From Paenibacillus sp. FSL R5-0517 (GTDB lineage: Bacteria; Bacillota; Bacilli; Paenibacillales; Paenibacillaceae), in the NCBI RefSeq assembly GCF_037974355.1, contig NZ_CP150235.1, forward strand, positions 6,386,001 to 6,450,000: 64,000 nt of DNA, read 5' to 3'. The notes below the pieces were generated by a model. That model saw nothing but the letters and a program-made list of their open reading frames with translations. It had not been told where the DNA came from and searched no databases. The translations under genes and the position numbers were made by a program. Each line of letters opens with the position of its first letter. Within the stretch, counting starts at the first letter, position 1. This document shows positions 27,088-45,484 of the stretch, piece after piece.

Positions 27088-27119
27088 CCCTTTATTCGTT
27101 TCCACTTGATCACTGCGGT

Positions 27120-27228
27120 GACAGAACAACTTCGGATCGCTGTTATCCCCGGATTTTTTTGATTCCCCTTTACAATGGGAAAATCCGGTGATAAAGGCGA
27201 ACGCTCTGCTTCCTTCGTTTGTTCTGTC
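27120..27228 (+). repeat. Dispersed hairpin repeat, copy A (about 109 bp)
   Basis: Outer arms GACAGAACA (27120-27128) and TGTTCTGTC (27220-27228) are perfectly complementary. Inside are a conserved CTGTTATCCCC followed by a T-run, a complementary AAAATCCGG-type arm, and GATAAAGGCGAACGCT. Copies B (42988-43095) and C (45329-45436) share the core and the length. Confidence 0.8.
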
Positions 27229-27290
27229 CCCTCCGTTAACGTGTGCACGAAAAAACATAACCTACGCTTTTGCTCTGAAGTAGGTAATAT

Positions 27291-27344
27291 AAAAAGGGTA
27301 GCTGCTCGTCATTCAAGTGAAATGACGAGCAGCTACCCTTTTTG
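27291..27344. terminator. Strong bidirectional terminator
   Basis: AAAAAGGGTAGCTGCTCGTC and its complement form a perfect stem of about 23 bp around a short loop, between the LiaI-like gene and potD, which converge. Confidence 0.85.
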
Positions 27345-27388
27345 TCTTTTTTTGAGGATCTAACGAACTGTGTACACGCTATTGGCGG

Positions 27389-42109: not shown

Positions 42110-42931
42110 CTACCCCTTCGGATTTAAAGTTTTGGCCATTTTGTTCATGACACCGACCACGACAAATGTAATCACAATCATAATCGCGGCAACAACCGAG
42201 GCCAGATACCAGTCGTTGAGAGTCATGGCGTTCTGATACAGGAACGTAGCAATCACGCGCTGCTTGCCTCCAAGGAGGGCAGGTGTGGTATACGCCGTCA
42301 GGCTTCCGACAAAGACAAGCACGGCTCCGATCACAAGTCCTGGCACAGCCAGTGGGAATACAACCCGGCGGAATGCCGTAATGCGCGATGCGCCGAGACT
42401 TTGCGCTGCCTTGAGCAAATCACCGTCAATGTTCTCCAGCACGCCCACCAGAGAGATAATCATCAATGGCAGGAACAGATGCGTCAGACCGATCATCATC
42501 GCTGCTGGCGTGTACAGAATATCCAATGGTTTGTCCACGATCCCCAGACCAACAAGGGTGTTGTTGATCAGCCCTTTGCGTCCAAGGATGATCATCCAGC
42601 TAAACGAACGCACGACCGGGCTGGTCAGCAGCGGGAAGATCGCCAGTGCCAGCAAAATGCCTTTGCGGCGCGGCGCTTTCTGCGAAATATAATAAGCTGT
42701 CGGGAATCCGAGCACCACACAGACGATGGTGGTGACCACGCTGACTTGCAGCGTCGTAAGCAGTATTTTCAAAAAGTATGGGTCTCTGAAAAAATGCATG
42801 TATCCTTCAAACGTGAAGGAGTTTTCTTGGAAAAACGTCGATCCGATCGTCAGGACAATCGGAATGATCATAAATGCCGCCAAAAACACGAACCCCGGCA
42901 GCAATAGCCAGTAGATTACTGATTTTTTCAT
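42110..42931 (-). CDS. ABC transporter permease, PotB-like
   Basis: A 273-aa permease with six helices and EAA loop (LKAAQSLGASRITAFRRVVFP). AGGAGT abuts the ATG at 42937; the ATG at 42931 (MKKSVIYW) has a workable 6-base spacing and is chosen. A copy of the 108-bp hairpin repeat lies just upstream, between this gene and the nucleoside hydrolase. Confidence 0.92.
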   Translation of the reverse strand: MKKSVIYWLLLPGFVFLAAFMIIPIVLTIGSTFFQENSFTFEGYMHFFRDPYFLKILLTTLQVSVVTTIVCVVLGFPTAYYISQKAPRRKGILLALAIFPLLTSPVVRSFSWMIILGRKGLINNTLVGLGIVDKPLDILYTPAAMMIGLTHLFLPLMIISLVGVLENIDGDLLKAAQSLGASRITAFRRVVFPLAVPGLVIGAVLVFVGSLTAYTTPALLGGKQRVIATFLYQNAMTLNDWYLASVVAAIMIVITFVVVGVMNKMAKTLNPKG

Positions 42932-42987
42932 CGCCATACTCCTGACTTGTAAATTTAATTCGAGATTGATACTTGAGTACTCCGATT

Positions 42988-43095
42988 GCAGTACCGTCCT
43001 TCGATCCCTGTTATCCCCCGATTTAATGATTTATTTTCATAGGTAAAAATCGGGGGATAAAGGGGAACGCTTCGCTTCTCCAGATCGGTTCTGCA
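42988..43095 (+). repeat. Dispersed hairpin repeat, copy B (108 bp)
   Basis: Outer arms TGCAGTACCG and CGGTTCTGCA pair at 9 of 10 positions, and flanking CGATTGC/GCAATCG extend the stem. Inner arms TTATCCCCCGATTT (43011-43024) and AAATCGGGGGATAA (43047-43060) are perfect. The core CTGTTATCCCC and GATAAAGGGGAACGCT are shared with copies A and C. Confidence 0.8.
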
Positions 43096-43135
43096 CTCTC
43101 CGCAATCGTATAAATATCTAATTGGGGCAGAGCAA

Positions 43136-44074
43136 CTACGCGTTTAACGCGTTGATAAACAGTTCAAGGAAGCTTTCTGCGTCTACGGTTTCGCAGACGA
43201 GGGTGTTGGGCTGCTCGCCCAAACGGTTTTGGAAGTCGCATACCATCTGGCCATCGCACAAGCGGCTGGCGGTTTCGACATCGACGTAATACGATTTGCG
43301 TCCAACGAGTTCGGGGGCAAGGGCTACGCCCACGGCCAGTGGATCATGCAACGCGCAAGCGCGAACACCGTTCATTTGTTCATACCGGTTGATGTAGATC
43401 TCCGTGCTCTGAGCCACGTACGCGCGCAGTGCAGGATCGGTGAGACGCTCAATCGTTGCTTCATTCAACAGCGTTTGACGCGTCACATCCAGTCCGACTT
43501 GTGTAAGTTTCTCGATGCCTGCGTGCAATACGATGCGTGCCGCCTCTGGATCAGCGTATGTGTTGTACTCGGCTGTCGGCGTAATGTTGCCATGTCCGCG
43601 AACCACGCCACCCATGAAGATGACTTCCTTCAATAAAGAAGGCAATTCAGGACACTTCATCAGCGCGAGTGCCAGATTGGTTAATGGAGCAGTCATGATC
43701 AATGTCAGTTCGCCTGGATACAACTTGGCTTGCTCCACGATAAAGTCCGGCGCAAAACCTTCCTCGGCTTGTTTGGACACCGCCGGATCAGGCAGCGCAC
43801 CGCCCAATCCGTCCTGTCCATGTACCCGGTGTTCATAATGCGACTTGCGAGTAAGGGGTCCTGCCGCTCCAGCAATCACCGGAATTTCAGGTGCACCCGC
43901 AAGTTCAAGGATTTTGCACGTATTCTCTGTTGCCTGCTGGAGTGATACGTTCCCACAGACTGTGGTGATACCGAGAATGTCCAGCTTCCGGCTTTTGACC
44001 GCCAGCAAAATTGCCAGTGCATCGTCAATCCCCGTGTCCACATCCATAATGATGCGATTCAGCGATTCACTCAT
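43136..44074 (-). CDS. Nucleoside hydrolase
   Basis: A 312-aa N-ribohydrolase with the calcium-binding motif DVDTGIDDALA (Asp11, Asp13, Asp17 and Asp18) and a conserved GGVVRGHGNITPTAEYN segment. It splits nucleosides to base plus ribose. AGGAG lies ten bases before ATG 44074. It lies between the ABC binding protein gene and the permease genes, so imported nucleosides are its likely substrate, with adenine deaminase acting on the product. Confidence 0.93.
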   Translation of the reverse strand: MSESLNRIIMDVDTGIDDALAILLAVKSRKLDILGITTVCGNVSLQQATENTCKILELAGAPEIPVIAGAAGPLTRKSHYEHRVHGQDGLGGALPDPAVSKQAEEGFAPDFIVEQAKLYPGELTLIMTAPLTNLALALMKCPELPSLLKEVIFMGGVVRGHGNITPTAEYNTYADPEAARIVLHAGIEKLTQVGLDVTRQTLLNEATIERLTDPALRAYVAQSTEIYINRYEQMNGVRACALHDPLAVGVALAPELVGRKSYYVDVETASRLCDGQMVCDFQNRLGEQPNTLVCETVDAESFLELFINALNA

Positions 44075-45246: not shown

Positions 45247-45328
45247 GATCCTGATTCCCCCTGATATATGTGTTTTAACAACCCAACCAATAAGTTGAAC
45301 TAGCTTGATAACACATCTTACGTAGAAA

Positions 45329-45436
45329 ACAGAAAGAACCTGGAGAAACGAAGTGTTCGCCTTTATCACAAGATTTCTCCCTTAGATAAGGGAATAAAAG
45401 AAATCTGGGGATAACAGCGATTGAAAGGTCTTTCTG
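45329..45436 (-). repeat. Dispersed hairpin repeat, copy C (108 bp)
   Basis: Read on the minus strand, it carries ATCGCTGTTATCCCC and GATAAAGGCGAAC, the same core as copy A. Outer arms CAGAAAGAACCT (45329-45340) and AGGTCTTTCTG (45426-45436) pair with one bulge; inner AGATTT/AAATCT and CTCCCTTA/TAAGGGA pairs are present. Confidence 0.75.
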
Positions 45437-45484
45437 ATTTTCGAAGAATATGATGTGTTATACAGGGCTAGTTCGACTTAAAAA

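Follow-up and report, generated by a model that had tools for sequence, protein, structure and literature searches.

Three hairpins in the window, i.e. the whole stretch of 64,000 nucleotides analyzed here (C1:6386001-6450000 in a genome of 6.92 Mb on one contig), belong to a dispersed repeat family whose copies are probably non-autonomous IS630/Tc1-mariner-type MITEs built around a folded core. The sequence-only reading had placed these hairpins, each about 108 bp long, at 27120-27228, 42988-43095 and 45329-45436, and all three were recovered there with common CTGTTATCCCC and GATAAAGGNGAAC cores and self-pairing outer arms. Shuffle folding, a pattern control and a covariance model marked them as non-chance, each copy folding, whichever strand is read, much more stably than its dinucleotide shuffles (z from about -4.3 to -5.4; 0/200 shuffles equal). 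Copy 3 runs on beyond these coordinates to terminal inverted repeats, and occupies about 45289-45482.

Copy 1, with core and paired arms at 27107..27241 on the plus strand (covariance model score 131.9 bits, and sequence), carries the type A arm GACAGAACA/TGTTCTGTC and degenerate terminal inverted repeats. Its core, CTGTTATCCCC...GATAAAGGCGAAC, is an exact pattern match at 27140..27202 (C1:6413140-6413202, plus strand), and the copy is placed between convergent genes. Adjoining it, also between convergent genes, is a long hairpin with T runs (27290-27345), likely a terminator common to both. Copy 2 (core and paired arms at 42974..43108, plus strand, 116.2 bits), with the type A' arm TTGCAGTACCG/CGGTTCTGCA, degenerate ends and an exact core match at 43008..43068 (C1:6429008-6429068, plus strand), takes up most of the gap between two minus-strand genes called from ORFs, for an ABC permease (42110-42937) and a nucleoside-hydrolase-like protein (43136-44074). 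Copy 3 was delimited by the end search as a whole element of 194 bp at 45289..45482 on the minus strand, between recognizable terminal inverted repeats AATAAGTTGAAC ... GTTCGACTTAAA; its core matches the pattern exactly at 45355..45417 (C1:6431355-6431417, minus strand), and it lies directly upstream of an ABC binding-protein gene. Going by functions read from the sequences, the initial placing of two copies beside genes of a purine-salvage cluster was only loosely right.

An exact search of the genome with the core pattern gave 37 matches, and the reversed control pattern none. A covariance model built from 33 copies raised the count for this genome to at least 150; further ones beyond the 150 were found by the model in retrieved sequence pieces alone. 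At E <= 0.001 matches occur in every one of the 75 genus genomes and, across 29 of 49 genera, in 230/298 genomes of the order. The further copies that the initial reading called for, in this and other genomes, were found. In GTDB, each of the 80 named records listed as carrying this core belongs to Paenibacillus. Copies are often found near gene starts or ends. Tandem arrays of three copies, regularly spaced by about 180-260 bp, occur at C1:5875755, 5876013 and 5876271 (L126), at L077:3157-3705 and at G041:C1:4640871-4641370. The core was also found in nine viral-contig records, which we infer to be probably prophage regions; phage records gave no match to the element, and plasmid records one weak match. 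In the IMG/VR viral contigs L237, L239-L243 and L245 the same element sits beside an identical flank, with a second common site in L239 and L244. No Rfam covariance model matched the window at gathering score, or five loci up to E=5. No description of such a Paenibacillus repeat was found in the literature consulted, which is no proof that the family is undescribed; set against Rfam, that literature and the RUP, BOX and REP elements, it appears to be so.

The commonest form, type A, extends from TATAARTTGAACTAAAGATTATTTACAC to GTGTAAATGNTTAGTTCAAYTTATA and lies between TA dinucleotides about 188 bp apart. In another form, lengthened to about 226 bp, there is an additional hairpin cassette of 38-41 nt, GCGTATGCTTCCGAAGCAGCTTTCTTTCAGAAAGCTTTTAG; it may be present or missing at each of two set positions, one following GATA and one following GGCGAA, and rarely occupies both. 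By outer arm, the 150 matches listed comprise about 100 of type A, 12 A', 16 B and 22 other, several of the last being B-like by sequence. Type B, which accounts for some 16-20 of the 150 matches listed, has none of the terminal repeats TATAARTTGAACTAAAG.

The best-preserved copies end in TATAARTTGAACTAAAG within a CTAG target, with TA duplications outside; in the 58 copies with both ends readable, TA stands on both sides in 31, and C...G outside the TA in 24. Empty sites are seen as CTA|G in L179/L181 versus CTA[element]TAG at C1:3827936, and as a single TA in CTAG at C1:2918980, where the element is present here, the empty sites being those of sister species; these two loci are the only ones with clean single-TA empty sites, several other sites compared being rearranged and lacking a clean junction. 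About 15 relatives lack the element at the copy 3 site and about 12 have it there, in the form of different subtypes; the copy 2 site holds different element types in different species. Nesting was seen too: in L002 and in L014, a type A element has inserted into a type B loop. Short length (188/226 bp), lack of a transposase gene, terminal inverted repeats TATAARTTGAACTAAAG and TA target duplication together characterize a MITE, with type B departing from this in its ends. A 78-bp internal-deletion remnant with both ends and no core lies at G000:C1:2713276-2713353 (L372), and truncated copies account for the remaining solo ends of L366-L373.

The mobile, MITE-like half of the original interpretation, which had called for a look at target-site duplications, is borne out in part by the TA duplications, with a single TA at two empty sites, by the nested copies and by matching insertion sequences in relatives. 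The same observations weigh on another explanation, i.e. that this is a host structured RNA family with a regulatory or processing role, not basically a transposon, spread by old duplications. It would fit the conservation of the core throughout the order while the arms drift, the conservation at an orthologous site of type B copies that lack transposon ends, and the frequent closeness of copies to gene starts or ends. Against it, the main types are shown to be mobile by their terminal repeats and TA duplications, by sites lacking the element and by nesting, and we regard this explanation as distinctly unlikely.

As to the mobilizing enzyme, elements of about 1.16 kb of the IS630 family, with the same ends as the MITE, were found in four sister species (G041, G061, G008 and G018), and not in this genome. 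Their proteins match NF033545 and PF13358, CTA/TAG flanks were seen at 5/5 copies inspected, and two G041 copies are 100% identical. Two ORFs meet in these elements at a conserved A7G run (AAAAAAAG; L208, L213, L228, L229, L230), which is consistent with a predicted programmed frameshift. Insertion of IS630-family elements takes place at TA, which becomes duplicated (PMC2170065). A transposase of this family, working in trans, would recognize the TATAARTTGAACTAAAG ends, cut the element out and insert it at the TA within CTAG, with duplication of the TA; judged from the shared ends, the transposase of the sister species plausibly moves the MITEs. In this genome, no IS630 (DDE_3) transposase was detected, tblastn of the IS proteins against all its retrieved loci gave no match, and the ends that stood apart from any listed copy, at eight places, proved to be truncated remnants; by these searches no IS630 relic was found. 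Since no intact mobilizer was detected in the genome, its copies probably remain from transposition in the past or await the arrival of a new IS. The IS630 account also leaves some copies uncovered, namely those of type B.

A different partner, a transposase of the TnpA-REP type, had been suggested at the outset. Of that suggestion, a cognate transposase is found in the form of the IS630-family elements of the sister species, while the TnpA-REP type was not detected here: PF01797 (Y1_Tnp) gave no match in this genome at E <= 0.001, with five control genomes giving matches. An element of the REP/REPIN type, moved by a Y1 (RAYT) transposase, would be in line with the high copy number, the intergenic placement and the palindromic structure, as well as with the orientation of the copies, since single-strand transposition is known to favor one orientation with respect to replication. 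With no Y1 transposase detected, and with TA duplication and IS630-like terminal repeats, we hold it to be extremely improbable.

The orientation bias itself is strong, as some 80% (79-82%) of the copies among the matches listed face one way relative to replication in two species. With the origin taken as near 0 from dnaA at C1:328, and a boundary at 3.13 Mb that was placed by the data themselves, close to where the terminus is expected, 46/62 copies to the left of the boundary are on minus and 72/88 beyond it on plus (p ~5e-12; 150 matches listed). The same rule is obeyed by 123/150 matches listed in G041, where copies common by descent to both species are not independent. A logistic fit, with genes called from ORFs only, gave an independent replication effect of -0.79 (95% interval -1.37 to -0.38) and a smaller gene effect; by the same gene calls, copies between convergent genes show no orientation bias.

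The interior of the element is not passive filler, in that a core of fixed sequence, sitting in a stem whose outer arms change freely and stay complementary, is kept across the order. For 144 distinct copies of this genome and a structure of 32 pairs, 90.1% of the cells are paired and 25 pairs have double changes, with 258 double-change cells versus 56 +/- 6 after shuffling (0/500), and for 70 copies from many species 92.8% are paired and 24 pairs have double changes (168 double-change cells versus 40 shuffled), figures that lean towards the structure, the alignments having been fitted to a model containing part of it. The covariation expected of the three copies is thus significant in a larger alignment, although it could come partly from arm-to-arm correction of quasi-palindromes. 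By eye, the outer arms differ outright between types, and Paenibacillus wynnii, P. monticola and P. timonensis have the same core between unrelated, still self-pairing arms. At the copy 2 site, in 12 species with a type B copy, the core has a mean identity of 91%, compared to 77-79% for the flanking intergenic DNA and 85-92% for the genes on either side; this comparison rests on one locus, two other sets there, of closer species, giving no discrimination.

A rival explanation is a purely selfish MITE with an unconstrained interior, in which template switching would correct the arms, and youth or gene conversion would keep the core alike. The arms do form a quasi-palindrome, and conversion could yield both the 38-nt cassette carried by only one of a pair of orthologous copies (L149 vs L144) that are nearly identical elsewhere, and the differing inner loop of two species at the same type B site. 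Arm correction would, however, erase the mismatches fixed in the core (G-A, A-C), and a locus-specific CCTTGG/CCAAGG variant is kept in 10/12 species at the type B site while the flanks diverge, which speaks against homogenization. We consider the purely selfish element possible but the less probable reading.

We take the constraint on the MITE core to reflect selection on the folded nucleic acid, likelier as RNA in transcripts of the neighboring genes than as a DNA cruciform, and give this reading about an even chance. Read in the direction of most neighboring genes, that of the leading-strand genes, the element is about 5.5 kcal/mol more stable as RNA than its other strand, and in 79-92% of copies this is the strand that folds better. 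In the G-T versus A-C wobble test the apex and lower stem favor one strand and the outer stem the other. The initial proposal that a folded RNA or a cruciform may be under selection is supported in part, by the kept fold and its significant covariation.

The closest analogues of the Paenibacillus family are RUP and BOX of Streptococcus pneumoniae. RUP is a 107 bp MITE with ends like those of IS630-Spn1 (PMC3049150), and shares with our family the short, non-autonomous make-up, the IS630-type ends, the hairpin fold and the many intergenic copies; as described, it is set apart as a simpler repeat from the present elements, with their length of about 188-226 bp, constrained core, optional cassette and interchangeable arms. 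BOX, in which boxA and boxC enclose a tandem row of modules and which lies on the leading strand in 60.8% of cases (PMC3049150), is likewise modular, dispersed and strand-skewed, with an optional internal hairpin module. By comparison with its published description, the present cassette differs in being placed at one or the other of two set positions, and one orientation is common to 79-82% of copies. Compared to the IS630 family (ISY100, PMC2170065; NF033545), the ends and the TA/CTAG target match the IS630 elements of the four sister species, whereas the MITE has no transposase and only the first 17-21 bp or so are in common.

Spread as an IS630-type MITE does not account for three features: the folded core with its fixed sequence, the cassette and the orientation rule. 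It is conceivable, if rather improbable, that the folded core, rather than the ends, is the lasting unit across the order, around which the arms, the internal cassette and the terminal repeats, and with these the transposase involved, are exchanged, the core aiding its own spread or the host at the level of RNA or single-stranded DNA. The family shapes intergenic regions throughout Paenibacillales, and a likely mobilizer can now be named. If the core constraint holds at more loci, the family would be a small transposon carrying a conserved folded module with an assayable role, and the orientation of such a transposon follows replication in two species.
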